Source: a virus
Virus record (IMG/VR): IMGVR_UViG_3300017527_000643
Location: 1-64,000 of that record
Strand: one strand, 5' to 3'
DNA: 64,000 bases
Positions 4,327-64,000 of the stretch are shown here, one piece after another. The position numbers were made by a program, and so were the translations under genes. Numbering within the stretch: the stretch's first letter is position 1; each line of letters begins with the position of its first letter. Under the pieces are notes generated by a model, which worked only from the letters and a program-made list of their open reading frames with translations, searched no databases and was not told the origin of the DNA.

Positions 4327-4347
4327 TATAATGTAATGAGGTGAGGA

Positions 4348-53800: not shown

Positions 53801-54039
53801 GCATTGGTCTAGCAGGCGTTGCAGGAATTATGGGGGCATCCCTGTCCATAAGTGCCGCTAACGCTGTGGGGCTACGCATCGTTGCTGACACTGCTGTTAA
53901 TGGAACAGGTATGCAAGTTTTTGCATCAAGCTTATTTGCAGAAATTTCTGCACCTACACAAGATGGTCACACTGATTCAGCAGAGGAAATTAAAGTTACC
54001 TTTAATGGAGCAGCTAGGTGGATTAGGTTGTATACTTAG
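50875..54039 (+). CDS. Long solenoid tail fibre
   Basis: 1054 residues, ATG 50875. The N-terminal 330 residues have fibre-attachment features (NWTETSKTSAINQRLRSSAQ). A middle beta part follows (330-570). From about 590 to 920 there are many 19-23-residue repeats of the form TAIYATAPNT / TAVFGRAETR / AIRGTAADS, with small residues and an AxYA core, typical of a beta-solenoid shaft. The C-terminal 120 residues are Ala/Gly-rich and end in a short beta domain (EIKVTFNGAARWIRLYT). The stop overlaps the stop of the minus-strand lipoprotein gene, which makes this the distal end of the structural block. Confidence 0.78.
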   Translation: MQRTEYWNQTRPTDTQLNWTETSKTSAINQRLRSSAQMGIAWGFQVTVNSVDNTKIDVARGEGYSGGEFLINEFETAGSGQRISTYTDTPSGTDDTGPAATSQGLADYTAGVLNYVSLVYSETESHPLSERSYPFTNRQTVVTETFTVSVLTETQWNALDAEALNNRILVGIVTAQGAGTPITSANIEQFVQPKTLPSSSQPSTISGVTIVGISDVTPLGIGTLRWEPSTSSMYWTAPGDTEGTALTISDSGVFTIYSNNTNYTLSLNVVWGSLSLVAAETSENISIRSLYGREIPMFSATDQIHRDMVGSGQPSTTNPHALTLADIGGGTLDHADLFHVNGISKDADSTQLECQIDAINDRIQVTSLGGFENSFLVDGVTLTEASGSNYVNFDTAPAPDSGEYLIYVDSAGNLGKVQIGNAFTNFTNLDIWDISNIVAGTGEIEWDATNDRIRYKAPGDAVWGDWVYVADRAPPLTGNGGFYKVYSSTTANWIILEFSGIIGASNTETFTVVKDETSYSDESMLKLSVVHWDQPTEVLSNLRDIRRFVTADNRTEFEEEHDENGHHTKTLRNGLDIYNREANTLLDVYGESVVVRGRAVSHTAGYFSAESTMGLEAHASDSLGAKIHAPNFGLYASAATETAIYATAPNTVVTVLAGTDTAIRASAVGNIAGAFIADNIRAVYGSAANEACYFYAETDTAIRGNANGDTAIMGTAANTAVFGRAETRYAAYFSAPNTALYATAATEVAVSGLADSNAIRGTAADSFGVAGLAGVKVAVWGSAPNTAASFFANTATAIEANADRLAIYATVTDSQGIYVTAPNTAAQFTVETNTAVDAGALGETAVRAVASATAIWVSATNEGIRVTAAGATAIYATAGAAYGVAAQANQLAGWFNASSDYSGNEVLGLYGAATNAAAGHEESAIGVSGWVVGSLATAVHGSAAHASYGTGVLGEAGSGNIGVGAYGVFGSAGVAGIGLAGVAGIMGASLSISAANAVGLRIVADTAVNGTGMQVFASSLFAEISAPTQDGHTDSAEEIKVTFNGAARWIRLYT

Positions 54040-54335
54040 TAAACGCAATCGTTGTTTGCGATTTTCTCGTTTACTTCCATTAGTTTTTCAGTGCAGTTGT
54101 GCGGTGTCCACCCTTCATACCAGGAATTTTGAACACAGTCCATCGGCTCTTCAACAAAATCTCCGCATTGCTCCTTGAGATCTGCAAGCGCGTGGCAGTA
54201 CTCGTAGCATTCCGCATACATTATCTTGAAAAAATCTTCTGTTGTCATTTCGTCCAGTGAGCACTCACATGTCGGGTCTGCCCCGCAGCCCCCAAGTAGA
54301 AATCCTAATGCTGCAATTACTGTAACCATTTTCAT
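54036..54335 (-). CDS. Cysteine-rich outer-membrane-type lipoprotein
   Basis: 99 residues on the minus strand; ATG 54335 follows AAGGAGAACGAA. An in-frame upstream start (54467) lies beyond the promoter and is rejected. The N-terminus is a lipoprotein signal (MKMVTVIAALGFLLGGC) with lipobox LGGC and acceptor Cys17. The mature part is acidic and has eight further Cys (C23, C25, C43, C47, C57, C67, C81, C97), enough for four disulfides. It converges on the fibre gene with a two-base stop overlap. Phage T5 places its superinfection-blocking lipoprotein Llp beside the receptor-binding gene, so exclusion is a likely role; an outer spanin is less likely because of the many Cys. Confidence 0.8.
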   Translation of the reverse strand: MKMVTVIAALGFLLGGCGADPTCECSLDEMTTEDFFKIMYAECYEYCHALADLKEQCGDFVEEPMDCVQNSWYEGWTPHNCTEKLMEVNEKIANNDCVY

Positions 54336-54356: not shown

Positions 54357-54385
54357 AATATCAGGTCGAAGTTTAGTTTTGTAAA
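54357..54385 (-). promoter_or_regulatory. Minus-strand copy of the CGACC promoter family
   Basis: Read on the minus strand: TTTACA (54385-54380), 17-base spacer containing CTAAACTTCGACC, then GATATT (54362-54357), and the lipoprotein ATG at 54335. The spacer shares CTAAACTT and CGACC with the + strand copy at 58677, so it belongs to the same family although both boxes are one base off. Confidence 0.65.
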
Positions 54386-54407
54386 GTAATTTTTTATGAG
54401 AAATCAC

Positions 54408-54435
54408 TAGACCTTTTGGTAATGATGAGTATAAT
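54408..54435 (+). promoter_or_regulatory. Promoter for the DNA ligase gene
   Basis: TAGACC (54408-54413), 16-base spacer, TATAAT (54430-54435), followed by AGGAG (54450-54454) and ATG 54460. The -35 matches consensus at four of six bases. It lies back to back with the lipoprotein promoter, so the two genes diverge. Confidence 0.5.
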
Positions 54436-54459
54436 GTCTCCAGGAACATAGGAGATTCC

Positions 54460-56382
54460 ATGGGCAAACCCCGAATCCAAGAACTCGAAAAAATCCTTAC
54501 AAATGCGCAGGATGAGTACTACAACGGCACCTCCATCATGGGAGATGACGAGTACGATGCCCTGGCAGATGAGCTTGCTGATTTGGACCCTAAGAATAAG
54601 GTTCTGAAGCGGGTAGGAGCCTCTGTTTCTGATGATGCCAAGCTCCAGAAAGCTAAACATGCGATTCCAATGGGATCGCAGAAGAAAGTAAATGAAGAAG
54701 CTGAATTTCGTAGCTGGGTAAAAAAGACAGGTGCAAAAACGCTAGTTTGCCAAGAAAAGCTGGACGGCTTATCAATTGATTTGGTATACAAGAAGTCAAA
54801 ATTAGTTCAGGCAATTACACGCGGAGACGGCGAAACAGGAGAAGACATCACACATAATGTTGTTCATATGGATAACGTGCTTCACAGGCTTCCCAAATTT
54901 AGTGGCAGTATCCGTGGTGAAATTGTCCTTCCGAAGAGCAGGTTCGAAAAGCATTTTGCAAATGAAGGTTACGCAAACCCAAGAAATGCTGCTTCAGGAC
55001 TTTCAAGGCGTAAAACGGTAAATAAGAAGACACTCCAACATATCAAGATCATTTCCTTTGACTGTACCCACTCCAAAATTGACTTCAAGAAAGAACACCA
55101 CAAAATACGCTTTTTGGAAGGTATGGGCGTTGATTGCGTTTTCACTAAAGTAGTAGATCTGACAAATGCCATCAAGGGCTACAATCTATATCAAAAAACC
55201 AAGCGTGAAAAGCTCGATCATGAAATCGATGGTATGGTTTTCAAAGTCAACGATGTAGCAGCACAGGAAGCGCTTGGAGAGACGGACGGAAGACCCAAGG
55301 GACAGGTTGCCTGGAAGTTTGCTGCAGAGATGCGTAAAACTATACTGGAGGATGTTTCCTGGGAGGTTGGCCTTACCGGTAGAATCACTCCTGTAGCGAT
55401 TTTGAAGCCCGTGGGCGTAGGTGGCGTTACTATCAAACGTGCCAGTCTCCATAACGTGAGCAACATGGAACGCCTGGGTGTTTACCCAATGGCAGACGTT
55501 TTGGTGAGTCGTCGTAACGACGTTATTCCCTACGTAGAGAAGGTTATTGCGAAAGGCAAATCAAAACAACCAGGGAAATTCAAGGTTCCTTCAGACTGCC
55601 CTGTTTGTGGCGAAGATACAGAATTTGAAGGCGAATATTTGATGTGTTCCAGCAAGGATTGCCCAGCGAAGAAAGAGGGCGATATTAAGAAGTGGGTAAA
55701 GAAGCTCGATATAGATGAAGTCGGAGAATCTTTTATCCGTGCCGCAATCAAGGCAGGTTTCATTGAAGACCCGGCTGACTTGTATACCTTATCTGCCGAT
55801 ACGGTTGCTACGCTGGACGGCTATCAAAGCAAGAGTGCGAAAACCATCGTGCGCAATATCAATAAGACAAGAGAATTGCCTCTCAAGAAATTTATGGGAG
55901 CATTGAACATTCCCAATGTAGGAACTACCACATTTGCAGCATTGGAAAAGGGTGGCTTTGATACTATTAGAAGTTTACAAGTAGCAACTTGGGGTGAATT
56001 TGCAAAAGTGGATGGAGTGGGAGATACCACGGCTTTGGCTATTTATAACGGGCTAATCGATAAAGAAAAATTGATCGAAAAGCTTTTGAAAAACGGTGTG
56101 TCAGTAAAAAAGAAGATCGTAGGCAAACTTAGCGGAAAATCATTTTGCTTCACTGGTCAGATTTCAATCAAACGTGGCGATGCAATGAAGCTCGTGGAAT
56201 CCATGGGCGGTGAAATCAAAAGCAGTGTGGGGAAAGGGTTGACCTACTTGGTTCAAGCCAATAAGACTTCTGCATCAGGCAAATCCCAAAAAGCAAAAAA
56301 GTATGGCACTGAAATTCTCGGTGAAAAAGAATTCTTCAAGCTTGTAGACTTTTCATTCAAACGCCTTCAATCACTTAGCTAA
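54460..56382 (+). CDS. ligA: NAD-dependent DNA ligase (LigA type)
   Basis: 640 residues, full domain set: Ia segment (YYNGTSIMGDDEYDAL, about 20-35), nucleotidyltransferase with adenylated lysine K100 in QEKLDGLSID and TRGDGETGEDITHNV, an OB fold (VGLTGRITPVAILKPVGVGG), a four-Cys zinc finger (CPVCG and CSSKDC, around 385-410), helix-hairpin-helix motifs (GVGDTTALAIYNG), and a C-terminal BRCT (about 560-640: GKSFCFTGQISI). It seals 5'-phosphate nicks using NAD. Slightly shorter than the usual 670 residues but with no missing motif. Most phage ligases use ATP; NAD ligases of full bacterial type are less common. Confidence 0.95.
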   Translation: MGKPRIQELEKILTNAQDEYYNGTSIMGDDEYDALADELADLDPKNKVLKRVGASVSDDAKLQKAKHAIPMGSQKKVNEEAEFRSWVKKTGAKTLVCQEKLDGLSIDLVYKKSKLVQAITRGDGETGEDITHNVVHMDNVLHRLPKFSGSIRGEIVLPKSRFEKHFANEGYANPRNAASGLSRRKTVNKKTLQHIKIISFDCTHSKIDFKKEHHKIRFLEGMGVDCVFTKVVDLTNAIKGYNLYQKTKREKLDHEIDGMVFKVNDVAAQEALGETDGRPKGQVAWKFAAEMRKTILEDVSWEVGLTGRITPVAILKPVGVGGVTIKRASLHNVSNMERLGVYPMADVLVSRRNDVIPYVEKVIAKGKSKQPGKFKVPSDCPVCGEDTEFEGEYLMCSSKDCPAKKEGDIKKWVKKLDIDEVGESFIRAAIKAGFIEDPADLYTLSADTVATLDGYQSKSAKTIVRNINKTRELPLKKFMGALNIPNVGTTTFAALEKGGFDTIRSLQVATWGEFAKVDGVGDTTALAIYNGLIDKEKLIEKLLKNGVSVKKKIVGKLSGKSFCFTGQISIKRGDAMKLVESMGGEIKSSVGKGLTYLVQANKTSASGKSQKAKKYGTEILGEKEFFKLVDFSFKRLQSLS

Positions 56383-56414
56383 CTGCCGCTCTTACGGCAC
56401 GTCGGGAGGAAATT

Positions 56415-56750
56415 ATGGAATCAGTATACATTGTAAGTACTGGTACGGGTTTTTTGTATGTTATTCAGGGGATTTTTACCACTAGAGAACTCGCAAACAA
56501 GTTCTCAGAAGCGTTTGAGGATGCAGTTGTTAATGAGGAGTGCCTATATACGGAATTTCCCAAATTATATAGATATGAATGCACCATAGATCTGGAAACT
56601 GGCAACCTGATCGAAGTGAAAGAGTGCAAACCTTCCGTAAGTCCCATGCTGCTAACTATCGATGGTAAAACGCTTTATTCGGTTGGCGAAACTAAGGCCG
56701 AGGCGCAGTACAATGCAGAATCTTACCTCAAGAAATTGCGCAAAGAATAA
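56415..56750 (+). CDS. Small protein, DUF7336-like
   Basis: 111 residues, ATG 56415 after GGGAGGA. It starts MESVYIVSTGTGFLYVIQGI and has FTTRELANKFSEAFEDAV, a beta-alpha pattern seen in short phage and bacterial proteins of the DUF7336 kind. The rest is beta and then a C-terminal helix. Function unknown. It is 32 bases after the ligase stop and probably cotranscribed. Confidence 0.55.
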   Translation: MESVYIVSTGTGFLYVIQGIFTTRELANKFSEAFEDAVVNEECLYTEFPKLYRYECTIDLETGNLIEVKECKPSVSPMLLTIDGKTLYSVGETKAEAQYNAESYLKKLRKE

Positions 56751-56912
56751 AGTGATTGATTAACAAAGAAATAAACAAGTCCTTCCCTGATTTAGCTACC
56801 TATTCCTATCAATTGACTCAAAAATCAATTTAGTAGCTGTTTGTAACTTCCAAAAATCACTTTATTTTATTACTAAATATTTTTTATTATCTGCTAGTTT
56901 AGCCTTTAGCGC
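56751..56912. other. AT-rich intergenic region with nested inverted repeats
   Basis: No gene is seen from 56751 to the promoter at 56913. Two nested inverted repeats lie here: AGCTAC (56794-56799) with GTAGCT (56833-56838), and AATTGA (56811-56816) with TCAATT (56825-56830). There is no T-run directly after, so a terminator call is not supported. It may separate the ligase transcript from the next promoter. Confidence 0.4.
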
Positions 56913-56941
56913 TTGACAAGCTACCATTGCGACCCTATATT
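56913..56941 (+). promoter_or_regulatory. CGACC promoter family, copy 1
   Basis: TTGACA (56913-56918), 17-base spacer with AGCTAC and GCGACCC, then TATATT (56936-56941). The leader to ATG 56988 is 46 bases and contains TGCGC, AAAGGAAA, GCGCA, a five-pair hairpin, then the ribosome site GGGAGAAC. Confidence 0.85.
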
Positions 56942-56987
56942 AGTAATGCGCAAAGGAAAGCGCAACTTATTAGAAGGGAGAACTAAT

Positions 56988-57887
56988 ATGACGGGCGTAA
57001 GCGGACTTTCGGTAATCGGGTACTTCGTGTGGTGGACGGTTAGCAACCAGAAGATTCGTAGGGATGACATGCAGAAGCTGATCGACGCAGCAGGTGTGAA
57101 GGACAATCAGGGGAAGCCGTTCAAGGTTCCTGAAGTGAAGGCGCGGTCTGCCTTCCTGAAGGCTGTCCGTGAGATTCGCGGGCAGAGCAAGAACAAGGGC
57201 ATCCTGATTCGCAAGATCAAGAAGGAATCAGAGGAATACCTTTTTGGGCTGGTTGATGAGGATGTGAACAAGCATGCACAAGAACTGAACTACTCGCACA
57301 GCGCCACCATGAAGTTCGATCCTATCCACGGTAATTTGAGTGTGGACCAGCCGCATCGAGGGTTCGATCTGGTCAAGGAACGGTACGCAGAGTACAAGGA
57401 TTTCATGAACAGCGATGATGTTCGGGAGATCGTCCTTACCATTCTGAATCAGATTCCCACTGTCAGTGTTCGTCAGCGCGGCGGCATCTACTTTGTGCCT
57501 GAGAAGTTCTCAGCCGAAGTGGAATGCCTGGAATCGCTGGTAGGCTCGCTGCCAGGTGGCGGGGAAGTTGATTTAGCTACGGTGGGCACCGGCTCCGCAA
57601 ACGGCAGTTACCTGGCGGTCGCTCCCCAGATCGATACTGAGAAGTCCAAGAAAGCCATCTACAAGGCATTTGTCGCTAGCTTGAAGTCCCGTATGCAGAG
57701 CTTCGAAAGTGACCTGGAAGAGAACGGTATCACCCAGACACACGCCCTCAAGACCCGTCTCCAGGAATTCAAGGACATGAAGGCTGAGATCGGATTCTAC
57801 CGGGATGCGCTCGAATTCCAGGTGGAAGATCTTACTGAAGGCTTGGATGCACTGACCAAGAAGGTGCAGAAGAAGTTGATGGAATAA
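56988..57887 (+). CDS. Uncharacterised protein linked to MoxR/vWA
   Basis: 299 residues from ATG 56988; the in-frame TTG at 56913 is the -35 box of the promoter and cannot be the start. N-terminus VSGLSVIGYFVWWTVSNQKI, then a helical domain (residues about 15-60), a beta-rich centre with RGGIYFVPEKF (about 162-172), and a C-terminal coiled coil (about 225-299). The layout resembles DUF6744-type phage proteins. It shares promoter type, leader and high-bias codons with the MoxR and vWA genes, so it may be the third member of that system. It ends in a clear terminator. Confidence 0.65.
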   Translation: MTGVSGLSVIGYFVWWTVSNQKIRRDDMQKLIDAAGVKDNQGKPFKVPEVKARSAFLKAVREIRGQSKNKGILIRKIKKESEEYLFGLVDEDVNKHAQELNYSHSATMKFDPIHGNLSVDQPHRGFDLVKERYAEYKDFMNSDDVREIVLTILNQIPTVSVRQRGGIYFVPEKFSAEVECLESLVGSLPGGGEVDLATVGTGSANGSYLAVAPQIDTEKSKKAIYKAFVASLKSRMQSFESDLEENGITQTHALKTRLQEFKDMKAEIGFYRDALEFQVEDLTEGLDALTKKVQKKLME

Positions 57888-57893
57888 TGATTG

Positions 57894-57915
57894 GGAGGGC
57901 TTAGCCCTCCTTTTT
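57894..57915 (+). terminator. Rho-independent terminator
   Basis: GGAGGGC (57894-57900), loop TTA, GCCCTCC (57904-57910), then TTTTT. It sits right after the 299-residue gene. Confidence 0.9.
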
Positions 57916-57946
57916 GTTTCTGCAGTATAATGAAAGGAGAAGTCTG

Positions 57947-58312
57947 ATGAAGAAGAAATTGACGAAGGTAAAAGAAGCCAGAAAGCGACTAGGACTTACA
58001 CTGCGGGATTTGGAGGAAAAGGTTGGAGTTTCCAGGCAAGCACTGTCAGCATACGAGCGTGGAGATTACCCCCCGCGTGAGGAAGTTTGGAAGAAGCTGA
58101 AGAAAGTTCTCAAGCTGAAAGGCAAAGTGGAAGAATATTGGGGCAGAGTTGCACATACCGGTAAAGCGAGACTGTACCATGAAGGTTCGGAATGCTACAT
58201 TAAGGGTTGCCACATTCAGCCAATTAGCCAGGGGTTGTGCCGCAAGCACTACCAGCGCATTCGTTATCATAGGATAACCCATGGCATTGCCCCAGAAATT
58301 AGCGAAGCTTGA
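57947..58312 (+). CDS. XRE-family regulator with zinc-type C-terminus
   Basis: 121 residues from ATG 57947 after AAAGGAGAAG. Residues 5-58 are a Cro/CI-type helix-turn-helix (ARKRLGLTLRDLEEKVGVSR, then QALSAYERGDYPP). The C-terminal part holds C83, C88, C98 and H101 in CYIKGC and GLCRKHYQR, a zinc knuckle seen in phage HNH-like proteins. The fusion is not standard for XRE repressors. It overlaps the ImmA-like gene by 32 bases, so the two are made together. A TATAAT lies at 57929-57934, but the -35 is unclear. Confidence 0.82.
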   Translation: MKKKLTKVKEARKRLGLTLRDLEEKVGVSRQALSAYERGDYPPREEVWKKLKKVLKLKGKVEEYWGRVAHTGKARLYHEGSECYIKGCHIQPISQGLCRKHYQRIRYHRITHGIAPEISEA

Positions 58313-58658
58313 AAGGCTGGCAAACAAACTAGGATATATAATAGTTCCTGGTAAAGAAAACGCCCTCCTGCCTGAAACAAAGACGATCACTGTAAACACG
58401 CGCCAATCTCCTATAAAACGCGCTTGGAATACCGCGCATGAAATAGGGCACGCAATTACGTTGACTCGTTGTGTGAACGAGATTGGTAAACGGGCACTTA
58501 GCGGTGCGTCCTACGAGTGGCCCACACTAGAGGCAGAATTTCGTGCGTGGCGCGAAGCAGATAAACTCATGAGAAAACTAAAGTTATACAATGACGCCTA
58601 CCTTAAGTATAAGCATTCCTGCATAAGATCCTATTATTGCTCATCAAATAAAAAATAA
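58281..58658 (+). CDS. ImmA/IrrE-like HExxH peptidase
   Basis: 125 residues. The motif HEIGH at 53-57 is followed by E84 or E86 in PTLEAEFRAWREADKL as the third ligand, the ImmA pattern. A basic, Tyr-rich end with HSCIRSYYCSS follows. ImmA of ICEBs1 cleaves its XRE partner ImmR, and the genes overlap as here. I expect this protein to cut or control the regulator at 57947. Confidence 0.82.
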   Translation: MALPQKLAKLERLANKLGYIIVPGKENALLPETKTITVNTRQSPIKRAWNTAHEIGHAITLTRCVNEIGKRALSGASYEWPTLEAEFRAWREADKLMRKLKLYNDAYLKYKHSCIRSYYCSSNKK

Positions 58659-58676
58659 ACTTTGTAAAAATTCCGG

Positions 58677-58705
58677 TTGACAAGCTAAACTTCCGACCCT
58701 ATATT
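58677..58705 (+). promoter_or_regulatory. CGACC promoter family, copy 2
   Basis: TTGACA (58677-58682), 17-base spacer AGCTAAACTTCCGACCC, then TATATT (58700-58705), and a 45-base leader ending CAGGGAGAACAAAT before ATG 58751. The leader can pair ATTAG with CTAAT around the GCGGG block. Confidence 0.88.
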
Positions 58706-58750
58706 AGAGGTGTCAGCGGGAAAGCTAATATAACCGCAGGGAGAACAAAT

Positions 58751-59896
58751 ATGAAAGCTCTGGAGAAAGTCAAGAAGTTGCAGGAAGAACTGGATGCCAA
58801 TATCGTAGAGCGGTCTACCGAGATCGAAGGTTCCCTGGCGGCACTGATTGCGAAGGTGCACGTCCTTTTCCTGGGGCCTCCCGGAACCGCCAAGTCCCTG
58901 TTGGCTGAGAACATCTGCAAGGCGCTTATCGGCGGAAAGTTCTTCCGCTGGCTCATGACCAAGTATACGACGCCTGAAGAGTTGTTTGGTCCACCCTCCC
59001 TGAAGGGGCTGGAGAACGACGAGTACCGGCGTATCACCAAGAACAAGCTCCCGGAAGCTATTATTGCTTTCCTGGACGAGATCTTCAAGGCCAATTCAGC
59101 CATTCTGAACAGTTTGCTGACGGCTATCAATGAGCGCAAGTTTGACAACAACGGCGACAATGGTCCGATGGATATTCCCCTCCTGTCCTGCTTCGGTGCC
59201 TCCAATGAGTTGCCGCAGGGCGAAGAACTTGGCGCACTCTATGATAGATTCCTGATGCGCTATTGGGTCAAGGAAATCCAGGACGATACTAACTTCTGCA
59301 ACTTGCTTGCTGGCAATATCGGGAACAACGACCCTAGCGTGGAGCTTACCATCGAAGAGATCGATGAATTGAACAAGCTGGCGGCAGAAGTAACCCTCAC
59401 GCAGGACATGCTTACCAACATGCGGAAGGTCCAGGCCGATCTGAAGATCAAGGGCGTCACCGCAAGTGACCGTCGCTGGAAGAGCGCTGTAGGCGTTCTG
59501 AAGGCACTTGCGCTGCTGCGCGGGCAGGATGAGGTTACCGGAGAAGAACTGGAAGCGCTGGCAGACATGATGTGGCAGAAGCCTGAAGACCGCAGGACCA
59601 TCCTGGAAGTCGTGAGCCAGTACGGCAACCCTCTGAACCTGAAGGCTATCGAATACCTGGATATGGGCAAGGAAGTTTACGACAAGTGGGCGCAGGCAGA
59701 CAAGGATGCCCAGGAAATGGCAGCAATTCAGGCGAACAAGCAGATCAAGGAAATCCTCAAGAGCATCAAGGCTGACATCCACGGGCGCTCGGACTCCGAA
59801 ACCCGGAAGCTGCGGGAAACCCAGAAGACCCTGAAGCGCCACCTCAAGACCCTCACCATGAAGATGATGGATCTGGATGATTCGGACAGCTTCTAA
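58751..59896 (+). CDS. MoxR-type AAA+ ATPase (RavA-like)
   Basis: 381 residues. Walker A GPPGTAKS (42-49), Walker B FLDEIF (107-112) with D109-E110, sensor 1 N152 in GASNELP, and arginine finger R166 in LYDRFLMR. A helical lid follows, then a C-terminal tail of about 80 residues with Lys/Arg-rich helices. The size and order match RavA-type MoxR proteins, which use ATP to remodel or load metal into a vWA partner. That partner is the next gene, 56 bases away with its own promoter. High-bias codons indicate strong expression. Confidence 0.93.
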   Translation: MKALEKVKKLQEELDANIVERSTEIEGSLAALIAKVHVLFLGPPGTAKSLLAENICKALIGGKFFRWLMTKYTTPEELFGPPSLKGLENDEYRRITKNKLPEAIIAFLDEIFKANSAILNSLLTAINERKFDNNGDNGPMDIPLLSCFGASNELPQGEELGALYDRFLMRYWVKEIQDDTNFCNLLAGNIGNNDPSVELTIEEIDELNKLAAEVTLTQDMLTNMRKVQADLKIKGVTASDRRWKSAVGVLKALALLRGQDEVTGEELEALADMMWQKPEDRRTILEVVSQYGNPLNLKAIEYLDMGKEVYDKWAQADKDAQEMAAIQANKQIKEILKSIKADIHGRSDSETRKLRETQKTLKRHLKTLTMKMMDLDDSDSF

Positions 59897-59904
59897 AGAT
59901 TCAC

Positions 59905-59933
59905 TTGACAAGCTTCCCTCCCGACCTTATATT
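59905..59933 (+). promoter_or_regulatory. CGACC promoter family, copy 3
   Basis: TTGACA (59905-59910), 17-base spacer with AGCTTCCCTCCCGACCT, then TATATT (59928-59933). Unlike the other copies, the ribosome site GCGGAGGAAA follows at once, giving a leader of only about 19 bases to ATG 59953. Confidence 0.85.
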
Positions 59934-59952
59934 GTCTCTAGCGGAGGAAATA

Positions 59953-61401
59953 ATGAAGGGCAAAACTCTAATCGACTATACGAAGTGGGAAAAGGTTCAG
60001 AAGGAAGGCTTCCAAGAGAAATACGAACCGATGCAGGAAGCAATCAAGAACGGCGACAACAAGGGATATACGTTTGACCCATTCACGCAGGATCTTTTCA
60101 GTGCCCTTTACCAATTGAAGCCGCAGTTCCCGGAAGAAGCTACCCCTGGCACGAACTGGCAAAAGGAAGCACTCGATACGATGCGGGATCTCCGCGAGTA
60201 CAAGGATATTCGCAACGGTGGAACCCTCTGCGATAGCTTCCAGTCTGGTCTGGGCGCTACTGTGATGGCAAAGCATTTTGCAGAAGTGCTGCCTGAAATG
60301 GAAGAACCAAATCCCGATGAACTTCAAATGCAGCAAGAAGCTATCGAAGATTTTCTGCAGGAATTCCCCGATCACCCGAATAAGGAAAAGCACCAAAAGG
60401 CACTCCAGCGAATTGCAGACCAGAACAAGGCTTCGTCAAAGGCATGGCAGGAAGGTGCTATGAAGGGGCAGGATCTGCGGATTGCCATGCGCCAAGCGTT
60501 GACGAAGGCCAAAGAGGCTATCGGAAAAGCAGAAGAAATGGCAGATGCCTACGGGTTTGGCGACGAACCCGGTAAGGATGGGTACACTGACCCCACTATG
60601 AAGTTGCGGATCGCAGAGAAGGTTCGTGCCAATCCTAAGCTGCGCAAGCTGGCTGAACTGGCTGGAAGGTTCCGTAGAGAGGCTAGGAAGGCCCAGGCGC
60701 ACAAGAAGTCCCCTGGCCCGGATGAGATCACGGATATCGAGATGGGAGCCGACCTGGGGCGTCTTATCCCTTCGGAGCTAATGAAGCTGGCTCACCCTCT
60801 GATGAAGCTCGAATTTGCCCGCAGGATGCTGGAACGGGGCCTGTCTCAGTATAAAATGGAATCTGTAGAAAAGAAGACTCGTGGGCCTATCATCGTTTGT
60901 ATAGACAATTCATATTCGATGAGTGGTCCTAAAGAGATTTGGAGCAAAGCCATTGCGCTGGCTATGTGCCAGATTGCGGTCGATCAGAAGCGCACTTTCG
61001 AGGTTATGCATTTTGATACTAAAGTACAAAAGATCTTTGCATTTCCTGCTGGAAATACTAACCCAGAAGAACTGATTCAGTGTATGTCATACTTTAGTAA
61101 GGGCGGTACTAAATTTGCTCCGGTGCTTGCAACAGCGTATGACCATATTACGAATGCGGCTGAAAAGGATTTGAAGGAAGCGGACGTTATCTTTATCACA
61201 GACGGCGAAGCTCCACTGAGTACCACAGAACAGCAGATTATCACTGCAGCCAAGAAGGCGACCGGTGCGAGCCTGTACACGATTTGTTTGGGTGCGACTG
61301 CCCCTAGCCTGGAGCCGATCAGCGATAAGTTCCTGGATCTCAAGAATCTGACTTCTCCTGAAGATGAGGAACAGGCCAAAGAGCTTATTTTCTCTGTTTA
61401 G
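59953..61401 (+). CDS. vWA-domain protein (ViaA-like) partner of MoxR
   Basis: 482 residues from ATG 59953 after GCGGAGGAAA; the in-frame TTG at 59905 is a -35 box. Residues 1-305 are helical and charged. The vWA domain follows (about 310-482) with the full MIDAS metal site: D318-x-S320-x-S322 in DNSYSMSG, T386 in GGTKF, and D417 in ITDGEA. This is the order of ViaA, the partner of RavA in E. coli. From about 60850 the codons turn more AT-rich than in the N-terminal part. Confidence 0.9.
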   Translation: MKGKTLIDYTKWEKVQKEGFQEKYEPMQEAIKNGDNKGYTFDPFTQDLFSALYQLKPQFPEEATPGTNWQKEALDTMRDLREYKDIRNGGTLCDSFQSGLGATVMAKHFAEVLPEMEEPNPDELQMQQEAIEDFLQEFPDHPNKEKHQKALQRIADQNKASSKAWQEGAMKGQDLRIAMRQALTKAKEAIGKAEEMADAYGFGDEPGKDGYTDPTMKLRIAEKVRANPKLRKLAELAGRFRREARKAQAHKKSPGPDEITDIEMGADLGRLIPSELMKLAHPLMKLEFARRMLERGLSQYKMESVEKKTRGPIIVCIDNSYSMSGPKEIWSKAIALAMCQIAVDQKRTFEVMHFDTKVQKIFAFPAGNTNPEELIQCMSYFSKGGTKFAPVLATAYDHITNAAEKDLKEADVIFITDGEAPLSTTEQQIITAAKKATGASLYTICLGATAPSLEPISDKFLDLKNLTSPEDEEQAKELIFSV

Positions 61402-61480
61402 CCTTACCACTCCTAGACATTCCTTAATTTTTAGCCTCCACTGTGTGGTACAATACGCCGCATGTTTGGAGGATTTCATC

Positions 61481-61876
61481 ATGGCACGGGTACTTATAGT
61501 TGATGACGATCCATCTATATTGAAATTTGTAGAGGAAATATTAAACAAATATGCGAAAAACGAATATAGTTCAGATTGGGATTTACGGGTTACTTCAGTT
61601 AGCAGCGCGATTAAAGCGCTAGAAATAGTAAAAGAGCATAATTTTGAACTGATTATAACTGATATTCTGATGGCGCGTATGGATGGGTGGGAATTTATTA
61701 AGGAAATTAGAAAGAAATTTCCGCAGTTTGATACCCCAATTGTAGTTATATCTGCGATCCAAGGGGCAGATCTAAAGTATGAAAGTATGCGGCACGGAGC
61801 AAGTGCCTGGTTCCATAAGCCATTGCGCCCAAAGGAATTCACCACAGAAATTTTTAAATTGATTCAGGAGCGTTAG
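61481..61876 (+). CDS. Stand-alone response-regulator receiver domain (CheY-like)
   Basis: 131 residues from ATG 61481 after TTGGAGGATTTC. Acid pocket D8 and D9 (VDDDP), phospho-acceptor D61 (ITDILM), S91 (VISA), and K113 (FHKPLRP); all receiver residues are intact. There is no output domain. Such single-domain proteins act by binding partners after phosphorylation by a host kinase. A TACAAT at 61450-61455 could be its -10. No histidine kinase is present. Confidence 0.92.
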   Translation: MARVLIVDDDPSILKFVEEILNKYAKNEYSSDWDLRVTSVSSAIKALEIVKEHNFELIITDILMARMDGWEFIKEIRKKFPQFDTPIVVISAIQGADLKYESMRHGASAWFHKPLRPKEFTTEIFKLIQER

Positions 61877-61880
61877 GCAG

Positions 61881-62216
61881 ATGGACATCTCTACTATACT
61901 TAGCGGTATCTCTATACTCCTCGCAGCATCTTTAGTAATTTGGATGAAAGTCATTTCTGCACGGGCGTTTAAATCCCTTGATGACAAAATAAAGGATTTA
62001 CACGACACTGTTGCGGGCTTAGATTCATCTGTGCGAGACATGGAAAAGGAAATCGTTCGCTTCCAAGCTTTTGAAAAGGGTGTTGATAAAGACATCAAGC
62101 AAGTGAAAGCTGACGTTATCCGTGAAGCACAGGTGATGAATAACCATTTGGAGACTGTGCATAAAAAGATCGACCACGTTGATACTATATTAGAAAAGCT
62201 GCGGGATAAAAAGTAG
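61881..62216 (+). CDS. Membrane-anchored coiled-coil protein
   Basis: 111 residues, four bases after the receiver gene. One membrane helix (about 5-24: TILSGISILLAASLVIWMKV) is followed by a long coiled coil (about 30-108). Basic residues sit just after the membrane helix, so by the positive-inside rule the coiled coil should face the cytoplasm. It may be the target or anchor of the receiver protein. An inner spanin would need the opposite topology. Confidence 0.7.
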   Translation: MDISTILSGISILLAASLVIWMKVISARAFKSLDDKIKDLHDTVAGLDSSVRDMEKEIVRFQAFEKGVDKDIKQVKADVIREAQVMNNHLETVHKKIDHVDTILEKLRDKK

Positions 62217-62226
62217 GGAGCCGATT

Positions 62227-62424
62227 ATGGTAACTGAAAAATTTAAAGAACTTATAGCCTACGTGGCGTCCTGCAACGGTACTGGGCGAGCAGAATTAGA
62301 TCAAAAGGTTGCTGCGGGAATACTTAATAAAGACGAAGCTGATTTAGTTTTTTATTATGCTAGCATCAAAAAGATAAATAATAAATTAGACAACATTACC
62401 AAAAAAGCCAAAGCTTCTCTTTGA
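62227..62424 (+). CDS. Small helical protein, 65 residues
   Basis: ATG 62227 follows AGGGAGC. The sequence is two helices (VTEKFKELIAYVAS and AAGILNKDEADLVFYYASI) with a Lys-rich end. No family recognised. Its stop TGA begins the hairpin that covers the next gene's ribosome site. Confidence 0.6.
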   Translation: MVTEKFKELIAYVASCNGTGRAELDQKVAAGILNKDEADLVFYYASIKKINNKLDNITKKAKASL

Positions 62425-62456
62425 GCCTTCTTGAAGTATAATACTTCTAGGAGGCT
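62424..62456 (+). promoter_or_regulatory. Long palindrome over the ribosome site of the RmlC-like gene
   Basis: AGCCT (62424-62428) pairs with AGGCT (62452-62456), CT with AG, and GAAGTAT (62433-62439) with ATACTTC (62441-62447), with single mismatches between the stems and centre A62440. The right arm holds the AGGAGG site of ATG 62461. TATAAT (62437-62442) also lies in the centre, so it could be an operator over a promoter, or an RNA hairpin that blocks translation. Confidence 0.6.
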
Positions 62457-62460
62457 ACCC

Positions 62461-62952
62461 ATGCAACCCTACAAAAAAATCATCAGAGATCCCATTCAAG
62501 TGTTCAGGCGCAGATGGAATGCTGACGGGCGTGGTAGGCTTATGGAAGGGCTTAGGAACGACGATAAGGCGTTCTCAGAGGACTTTGGGCAAGCTTACGT
62601 GACTACGATCCTTCCTGGGGTTATCAAAGCATGGCACATGCACGAAAAGCAAACTGATCGGATGCTGCTTCTGCGTGGGACTGTGCGGTTCGTGGCTGTC
62701 TTAGGGCTTGTGGCACATACGCCTGAAGGGCTTGGCCCGGATGTAAAAATGGATTTTGTAGTTAGCGATTTTGACCCATATTTGATTGTTATCCCGCCGA
62801 CTCTCTACCATGGATTTCAAAATATGGCAGATGAAGAAGCTTATATTTTGAATATTCCTACTAAAGAATACAACCGTGAAAACCCGGATGAAAAGCGGCT
62901 TGATCCTCATGATATTGTGGACTTTCCCTGGAAAATATCGTTGGATGGATAA
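62461..62952 (+). CDS. RmlC-like cupin sugar epimerase
   Basis: 163 residues from ATG 62461 with AGGAGG six bases upstream; an in-frame TTG at 62431 lies in the palindrome. The family pattern is clear: DGRGRLMEGLRNDD, QAYVTTILPGVIKAWHMH (H59, H61), DRMLLLRGTVRFV, VIPPTLYHGFQNM, and ILNIPTKEYNRENPDEKR. This is the dTDP-4-dehydrorhamnose 3,5-epimerase-like cupin group. It may alter a nucleotide sugar for host surface or phage glycans. No other sugar gene is nearby. Confidence 0.85.
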   Translation: MQPYKKIIRDPIQVFRRRWNADGRGRLMEGLRNDDKAFSEDFGQAYVTTILPGVIKAWHMHEKQTDRMLLLRGTVRFVAVLGLVAHTPEGLGPDVKMDFVVSDFDPYLIVIPPTLYHGFQNMADEEAYILNIPTKEYNRENPDEKRLDPHDIVDFPWKISLDG

Positions 62953-63165
62953 ATGCCTATCTACTCTTTGAAATGTAATGCGTGTGGGCACCTCCAAGAT
63001 GAGCTTATAGGGGTTTCAGAAATAGCAGAATATGATCCAAAGGATATGAACCTATCAGAGCTTAAAGTTAAGTGCAAAAAGTGTGGTAAACATAAGTTTA
63101 GCAAGCAGGTTGCTGCCCATGGTAAAATGCCCCATAACTGGAGCGAGTGGCAGCGAAGGCCATGA
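62953..63165 (+). CDS. Small zinc-ribbon protein (FmdB-like)
   Basis: 70 residues; the ATG at 62953 directly follows the RmlC-like stop. The start MPIYSLKCNACGH and a second CKKCGKH give a CxxC-CxxC ribbon as in FmdB-type proteins. A basic end with WSEWQRRP follows. The stop overlaps the next start as ATGA. Role unknown. Confidence 0.75.
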   Translation: MPIYSLKCNACGHLQDELIGVSEIAEYDPKDMNLSELKVKCKKCGKHKFSKQVAAHGKMPHNWSEWQRRP

Positions 63166-63371
63166 AAGAGAGTTTTAAAGAATTAGTAGATTTGATAGGT
63201 GACCGTAATAGTTTATGGGTAGAGCTTCGTACAGGAATAAAAATTTGTCTTGTAGCTGTAAATGACTACAAAAAGAAAGTGCTTACAGGAAGATACACGC
63301 CATGTGTGCCAAAAGCCCGGATATTTCCCATAAAATATGAACAAATTAAACGCATAGCTGGAGGTAACTAA
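63162..63371 (+). CDS. Small basic protein, 69 residues
   Basis: ATG 63162 overlaps the previous stop (ATGA); a GTG at 63147 would be deeper inside that gene. The pattern ELRTGIKICLVAVNDYKKKV with a later beta strand suggests a small SH3-like or alpha/beta fold. Family not recognised. It overlaps the following RHH gene by one base. Confidence 0.6.
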   Translation: MKESFKELVDLIGDRNSLWVELRTGIKICLVAVNDYKKKVLTGRYTPCVPKARIFPIKYEQIKRIAGGN

Positions 63372-63532
63372 TGAAAGCTAAAGACAAAAAGATGGACAAA
63401 GTAGCATACCGTAAGAAGATCCATATCCGGTTGGATGACGATCTTCACAGAAAACTAAGGTTGAAAGTAGCTAATGAAGCTACGACTATTCAAAATTATA
63501 TTACAAATCTTCTAAGAAAATCCTTAGTTTAG
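63371..63532 (+). CDS. Ribbon-helix-helix DNA-binding protein
   Basis: 53 residues, ATG 63371 to TAG 63530-63532, with GGAGG (63360-63364) seven bases upstream. The Arc/CopG pattern is clear: a basic start, the ribbon strand KKIHIRLDDDLHRKLR, then a turn and second helix TIQNYITNLLRKS. Such proteins are dimeric repressors. It lies just before a promoter of the CGACC family and could regulate it. Confidence 0.8.
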   Translation: MKAKDKKMDKVAYRKKIHIRLDDDLHRKLRLKVANEATTIQNYITNLLRKSLV

Positions 63533-63564
63533 GAACTTTATTACTTCCCTTCATAAAAATAAAG

Positions 63565-63593
63565 TTGACAAATCTTTAGTAGATGTTTATATT
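63565..63593 (+). promoter_or_regulatory. CGACC promoter family, diverged copy 4
   Basis: TTGACA (63565-63570), 17-base spacer that lacks the CGACC block, then TATATT (63588-63593), and a 49-base leader ending GAAGGGAGAACGAAC before ATG 63643. It keeps the core boxes, spacing and GGGAGAAC leader end of the family. Confidence 0.8.
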
Positions 63594-63642
63594 ACATCTG
63601 TCGAAGTGCTGTCGGGAACTAAACAATGAAGGGAGAACGAAC

Positions 63643-64000
63643 ATGGGTAACAAGGTAAAGAAAACGGAGCCGAAGAAGCGGGTAAAGCGGTACGACGACG
63701 CTGAGAAGGTGAAGCTCTTGAATGACTATCAGGAACTTCGAAACGGTGGCAAAAACGCTGATGTTGCTGCCAAGGAAGTTGGCGTTCCCTACATCACTTT
63801 GCGGACGTGGCAGAAGGCCAAGGAAAAGAAGCCCAAGGGCAAGAAGAAGGCTGTGAAGGCCCTTGCGCGGGGCGCGAAGGCCAAGAAGGTACGCACTCCC
63901 AAGGCTCCCAGCGCGGCTGTCGTGCTCGTGCTCACGGATGGGACGCGGGTCGAATGTGCCAATGCTACGGATGCCGTGGCGTTCATCAAGGCCAATCGCT
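63643..64000 (+). CDS. HTH protein with Lys-rich linker (3' end outside window)
   Basis: 119 codons visible. Residues about 18-60 form a helix-turn-helix of the transposase/sigma-like kind (EKVKLLNDYQELRNGGKNAD, then VAAKEVGVPYITLRTWQKA). A basic Lys/Ala linker (about 60-90: KKPKGKKKAVKALARGAKAK) precedes a small beta-alpha domain (VVLVLTDGTRVECANATDAV). High-bias codons (AAG, CTC, GCC) match MoxR and the capsid gene. It may be an abundant DNA-binding protein. The frame is open at base 64000. Confidence 0.72.
   Translation, partial: MGNKVKKTEPKKRVKRYDDAEKVKLLNDYQELRNGGKNADVAAKEVGVPYITLRTWQKAKEKKPKGKKKAVKALARGAKAKKVRTPKAPSAAVVLVLTDGTRVECANATDAVAFIKANR

Follow-up and report, generated by a model that had tools for sequence, protein, structure and literature searches.

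A family of near-consensus promoter-like sites in the non-structural arm of an uncultured phage, very probably read by the host primary-sigma RNA polymerase

The virus record IMGVR_UViG_3300017527_000643 is a linear sequence of 93,971 bases, probably a fragment of a phage genome, whose bases 1 to 64,000 form the stretch analysed here (the window, 64,000 nucleotides); sites named 66827, 69619, 75006, 83021 and 86530 lie past the window end and are given in record coordinates. Its portal (36% identity) and major capsid (44% identity) proteins put it near Virus Rctr197k, and environmental contigs exist with capsid proteins 67–96% identical to those of this phage. Noncoding DNA makes up about 6.4% of the record, in which no tRNA genes were found. 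Structural genes occupy approximately the first 54 kb. The subject of this study is a family of promoter-like sites, five of which stand at the beginning of the non-structural arm and outside the structural genes, where the first-pass annotation, made from the letters alone, had placed them.

Each of the five sites combines a TTKACA and a KATATT hexamer across a spacer of 17 bases, and all of them exist with the sequence, strand and spacer claimed for them, ahead of lipoprotein, DUF6744, MoxR, vWA and HTH-like (helix-turn-helix) genes, respectively. The minus-strand copy (54357–54385, an exact TTTACA-N17-GATATT, hereafter 54385(−)) belongs to a weaker subfamily, TTTACAAAACTAAACTT, and serves a lipoprotein gene (54036–54335, minus strand), an open reading frame whose signal and lipobox can be read directly and which is preceded by the Shine-Dalgarno sequence AGGAGAAC. 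The plus-strand copies are all exact matches to TTGACA-N17-TATATT and serve plus-strand genes. That at 56913–56941 carries AGCT past the −35 and CGACC ahead of the −10, and is followed by the Shine-Dalgarno sequence GGGAGAAC (56976–56983) and by the DUF6744 gene (56988–57887, 299 residues; Pfam PF20529, E 1.4e-31), whose unit ends at an intrinsic terminator (57893–57911; fold −15.7 kcal/mol, z −3.7). Beyond an XRE-type HTH gene (57947–58312; Pfam HTH_3), which is a candidate regulator, the copy at 58677–58705 again has AGCT and CGACC, with CTAAACTT within its spacer, and precedes a second GGGAGAAC (58739–58746) and the gene of a MoxR AAA+ ATPase (58751–59896; Pfam bpMoxR, E 2.1e-51). The third copy, also with AGCT and CGACC, occupies the MoxR/vWA junction (59905–59933) ahead of the vWA-domain gene (59953–61401; Pfam VWA_2, E 5.3e-10). 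Further on lies another candidate regulator, a small ribbon-helix-helix/HicB-like gene (63371–63532) read directly from the sequence and assigned by inspection; one member of the scanned protein set matches Pfam HicB and one RHH_10, their link to this gene being likewise made by inspection. The last copy (63565–63593) lacks CGACC and resembles the other sites in hexamers and spacing alone. It precedes a third GGGAGAAC (63631–63638) and an HTH_Tnp-like gene (63643–64000 in the window, with its end at 64002; Pfam PF01527, E 6.3e-4, below the curated cut-off), after which comes a terminator at record 64031–64058. Both the DUF6744 and the HTH-like gene end at strong intrinsic terminators. The word GGGAGAAC, noticed earlier as common to three leaders, does stand ahead of ATG in all three; it combines GGAG with an A-rich spacer and is a Shine-Dalgarno sequence, GGAG being found at 54 of 120 rough gene starts. 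A known RNA element was sought in the leaders, with no Rfam match.

We demonstrated that the likeness of the five sites is not due to chance. The sequence, position and similarity of the sites were computed directly: the pattern TTKACA-N17-KATATT has five exact copies in the 94-kb record, against 0.11 expected from the dinucleotide-shuffled window (none of 100 shuffles contained five) and a mean of 0.12 in Markov-simulated records. No additional exact copy turns up in the remaining 30 kb, the reversed control pattern has none in the record, and alternative spacings from 12 to 23 give just two isolated matches, at 16 and at 23. Moreover, CGACC stands in register before the −10 in four of the five sites (three plus-strand copies and the minus-strand one), as had been reported, and among 200,000 simulated sets of five spacers with noncoding composition not one had any 5-mer common to four. 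The excess of copies and the four-fold CGACC thus establish a non-chance likeness, and an origin by chance is ruled out by the shuffles, the spacing scan and the CGACC simulation together. The hexamers match the consensus at 11 of 12 positions in the four plus-strand copies and at 9 of 12 in 54385(−). The TG preceding the second hexamer in TGn extended −10 promoters is absent from all five, and the 25 nucleotides upstream, scanned for an UP element, have an A+T content of 0.56–0.76 for 0.61 in noncoding DNA. A further shared word, CTAAACTT, is indeed common to 54385(−) and 58677, but its place with respect to the hexamers differs by one base between the two, and the word is frequent, with 23 copies in the record, of which 7 are noncoding and the others fall in coding DNA.

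These five sites are only part of the family. A position matrix was built from the five sites, and then from the enlarged set, and run over the full record; random scatter was not seen, the top eight matches being all noncoding. The five are real, but the family is not confined to the interval 54357–63593 originally given for it, since the matrix adds three further noncoding and gene-proximal copies, at 83021 (TTTACAAAACTAAACTTAGTGCTGATACT), 86530 (TTTACAAAACTAAACATGGTCCTTACTAT) and 69619 (TTTACAGTTTAGCTTTTAGACCCTACAAT). With the eight-member matrix, the weakest member scores 21.0, the best simulated genome 19.0 and the best non-member 14.7, a separation that is partly circular because the members built the matrix. 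When each member is left out in turn, six of them rank between 4 and 8, 69619 ranks 12 and 63565 ranks 22, so that 69619 and 63565 are weaker members of the family; left out of the five-site matrix, 63565 falls to rank 73 with a background-like score. In all eight members, a start codon lies 20–50 nucleotides past the −10. Subtype one, TTGACAAGCT-N7-CGACC-Y-TATATT, comprises 56913, 58677 and 59905, and subtype two, TTTACAAAACTAAAC, comprises three dispersed sites, 54385(−), 83021 and 86530; the first 17 nucleotides of 54385(−) are identical to those of 83021, and 15 are shared with 86530. The sites at 66827 and 75006 are near-consensus with a 16-base spacing and are probably ordinary promoters. 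None of these sites lies in the structural arm. At the very end of the record (93958–93971), AATTAGTTTACAAA repeats the same 14 bases that start the 86530 copy, and the contig may end inside another promoter copy. From the −10 region of 75006, a 9-bp perfect inverted repeat, ACGTGCGTG...CACGCACGT, spans record 75028–75080 upstream of a response-regulator-like gene.

Codon use provides a second line of evidence, also computed directly. Against a capsid-gene codon reference, the MoxR, DUF6744, HTH-like and vWA genes rank 1, 2, 3 and 5 of 98 (Mann-Whitney p=5.5e-7, a value that assumes independent genes and relies on rough gene calls). The same four genes rank 1, 2, 4 and 8 of 117 in a second gene set, and 1, 2, 5 and 7 of 96 with a broader codon reference, and their capsid-like codon use exceeds that of genes behind a second promoter-like class, AGTATAATG, described below (p=0.001). 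The gene behind 69619 ranks 6 of 98. Because of these ranks, the four plus-strand genes look highly expressed, which suggests that most genes behind the promoters are made in large amounts.

What reads these sites? To judge from their anatomy, the five, each placed in noncoding DNA ahead of a gene led by a Shine-Dalgarno sequence, are very probably promoters for the host primary-sigma RNA polymerase. The first-pass annotation had taken the conserved spacer as a sign that a phage or host factor may read the sites. The step to a dedicated factor is unsupported, since T4 early promoters share an extra consensus of their own and are nevertheless read by the host polymerase (PMC2988021); hence conserved spacer bases do not force such a factor. 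The three subtype-one copies are fully identical (1.00) at AGCT and CGACC, whereas identity drops to 0.43 across the seven bases between them and to 0.23–0.38 outside the promoter. This pattern keeps conservation close to where the polymerase makes contact, and argues for constraint beside the hexamers rather than plain copying. We infer an explanation, covering the polymerase used, the strength and timing of the sites, how copying spread them and what the shared spacer bases do, that we hold as a whole to be probable. The five sites would be strong promoters, read by the host primary-sigma RNA polymerase and belonging to a lineage-specific family of at least eight copies in the non-structural arm of a large tailed phage. 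The family would have multiplied inside this genome, with selection for strength preserving its copies, each of which drives one gene or a few. From the strong subset (the subtype-one copies together with 63565), the DUF6744, MoxR, vWA and HTH-like proteins would be made at high levels. The extra bases beside the −35 and the −10 would most likely adjust how the polymerase binds, a role also proposed for the additional consensus of T4 early promoters, no separate factor being involved.

That these hexamers alone can form an ordinary cellular promoter follows from a Gemmatimonadota chromosome (G008, CP070758.1), where TTGACA-N17-TATATT occurs at 59 sites for none with the reversed control, and with unconserved spacers; these counts also suggest that TATATT is a common −10 in this chromosome. 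The CGACC form was rejected as a feature of a host lineage: TTGACA-N11-CGACC-N-TATATT has 18 scattered matches in 84,980 species genomes, about what chance gives by a rough estimate, with no lineage enriched, the closest-looking cellular match being upstream of a tRNA gene in a deltaproteobacterial metagenome-assembled genome. As a general phage feature it was rejected as well, GACC being found before TATATT in 22 viral stretches and its permutations CAGC and CCGA in 37 and 76. Some of these observations weigh against reading by the host polymerase alone. Sigma70 does not need CGACC to be shared four-fold, and this sharing is seen in neither the cellular nor the viral background, which leaves room for a phage-specific reader; a dedicated factor is possible and not required. 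Codon bias, for its part, backs high protein output and not promoter activity itself, and the lipoprotein gene behind 54385(−) has an average codon use (rank 53 of 98).

The spacer words could also be operators, the XRE or the ribbon-helix-helix protein binding CTAAAC(TT) and/or CGACC to repress or time the set. Both candidate regulator genes are located inside the region, and CTAAAC is enriched in noncoding DNA (14 occurrences, where permuted words average 3.2 and none of 50 reaches 14). Seven of the eight promoters have it inside them or close by, in either orientation and with no fixed position, an arrangement possible for a repressor site, and at 54385(−) the 7-bp inverted repeat CTAAACT-N14-AGTTTAG has its arms on either side of the −10. 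We nonetheless find this unlikely. That repeat is equalled in 19 of 300 shuffles, as are most inverted repeats by theirs, and the set has no consistent dyad or spacing; a palindromic operator common to it was sought in an inverted-repeat search and not found. Moreover, three members were found partly through the CTAAAC word itself, CTAAACTT is, as noted above, common in coding DNA too, 59905 has no CTAAAC and 63565 no CGACC.

Recent duplication of promoter segments, with spacer bases devoid of regulatory meaning, would account for the two subfamilies with their long identical blocks, such as TTTACAAAACTAAAC at three dispersed sites, and for the absence of the family from the compared parts of three related phages (G026, G028 and G030), which implies a recent turnover. 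As the only cause of the likeness it seems quite improbable to us, as plain copying does not predict full identity in AGCT and CGACC next to 0.43 between them and values at or near background outside. Finally, a phage-encoded sigma factor, or a sigma-appropriation system such as AsiA/MotA of T4, could read the set. Bases are shared beyond the hexamers, and the record is a fragment, so that the gene could lie outside; but a near-consensus −35 is present, while MotA promoters lack one (PMC2988021), and no sigma, anti-sigma or RNA polymerase family came up when the proteins of the right arm were searched with Pfam and PHROGs and 37 of the left arm with Pfam. Such a reader is very improbable, and host primary-sigma polymerase remains the reader that we favour.

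Comparison with relatives suggests that these sequences change quickly. The capsid of this phage is 84%, 93% and 67% identical to those of G026, G028 and G030, respectively, of which just G030 covers the corresponding region. The exact family words are absent from the compared parts of all three, except for one lone TTGACAAGCT in G028. Synteny in G030 covers the genes for ligase, DUF6744, XRE and a response regulator; no MoxR-vWA pair was found in it. At its junction past the ribbon-helix-helix gene, TTGACT-N16-TAGAAT stands where this phage has 63565, and a promoter at this junction may thus be conserved in position and not in sequence. A conserved promoter footprint was also sought among the closest MoxR/vWA relatives by sequence; these are mostly about 30–47% identical and do not share the promoters. 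Initial single-protein searches of viral contigs gave no matches.

The combination of DUF6744, MoxR and vWA is found again in a Moorella phage and in several environmental phages. In one relative (G039, 46% capsid identity), the motif TGGCACG-N5-TGCA stands upstream of each of DUF6744, MoxR and vWA; we take it to fit the sigma54 −24/−12 consensus, and the class is assigned from that consensus alone. Six copies, all on one strand, occur in G039, five in G031 and four in G034, the reversed control giving 0; in G034, the module genes are without it. At the loci concerned in these three genomes (L309–L323), the sigma54-type motifs lie on one strand, mostly 20–65 nucleotides upstream of start codons. 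Since G039 has another shared motif before the same three genes, the placing of this module under shared promoters gains support. It is possible, though we advance it only tentatively, that in this phage group each gene of the module is equipped with a separate copy of a promoter shared across the genome, and that related phages have exchanged one class of this promoter for another, with the sigma70 type in the present phage and the sigma54 type in G039. If true, the module would depend on one host sigma factor in some phages and on another in others. The relatives suggest that a layout with a promoter copy for every gene can outlast changes in the promoter sequence, and perhaps in the sigma class, and the control of the phage MoxR-vWA module thereby becomes a testable question. 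A phage-encoded sigma54 activator was sought in the three motif-bearing relatives: none scored over the cut-off, and the sole sub-threshold match overlaps the MoxR gene. A partial literature search found no report of a sigma54-type motif set in phages. MoxR-vWA pairs of jumbo phages are proposed to assist virion assembly (PMC7824862); if this holds here, these proteins could be made abundantly at a late stage and not an early one.

The closest known parallels are the T4 early promoters, which are read by host sigma70 and likewise have many dispersed copies, near-consensus −35 and −10 boxes, extra shared bases and non-structural genes downstream (PMC2988021). This phage differs from them by the lack of TGn, by TATATT instead of TATAAT, by AGCT and CGACC as shared bases and by fewer copies; it differs from the T4 middle (MotA/AsiA) promoters, where the MotA box replaces the −35, by its near-consensus −35. 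The predicted host sigma70 promoters of phage 7-11/phiEco32 are also confined to functional (non-structural) genes, several of them at 17 bp, but that phage encodes a sigma and an anti-sigma with separate phage promoters (PMC4331800), of which none is recognised here. In archaeal viruses, one conserved regulatory sequence similarly precedes separate early genes and groups genes of unknown function, and these conserved early promoters have been used to find anti-defence genes; there, however, the promoters are of the TATA box/B recognition element type and early expression was measured (PMC11065993). The G039 motifs are alike in standing before DUF6744, MoxR and vWA separately and unlike in sequence and putative promoter class. 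As this switch is not retained in related viruses, the present family is a lineage-specific and rapidly evolving local form of a strategy already known from viruses. Promoter anatomy and codon bias together can flag strongly expressed unknown genes of an uncultured phage without expression data, here those of the DUF6744, MoxR, vWA and HTH-like proteins.

Private full-consensus promoter families with their own shared bases occur in other phages, namely G001 (14), G015 (5) and G010 (5). In G001 (IMGVR_UViG_3300048630_000197, 150 kb; loci L049–L062), many of the 14 TTGACA-N17-TATATT sites have the leader CATGTAAGCGATAGGAAAGG and an inverted repeat, CCTATCGC/GCGATAGG, around the −10; no match to the capsid protein of the present phage was found in this genome. 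In G015 (L106, L115, L121, L123 and L125), five promoter-like sites of the form TTGACACGCA...TATATT are found in 3.7 kb. In the present record, the second promoter-like class, AGTATAATG, is located directly upstream of genes. Its 8 exact copies all lie in noncoding DNA on the plus strand and have no −35 in common. Sites of this class are positioned at 4327, 54430, 57926 and 62437 of the window and at 64067, 64876, 75391, 76703, 85584, 86779 and 93669 of the record. Two GTATAAT sites come directly after the intrinsic terminators at 57893–57911 and at record 64031–64058.

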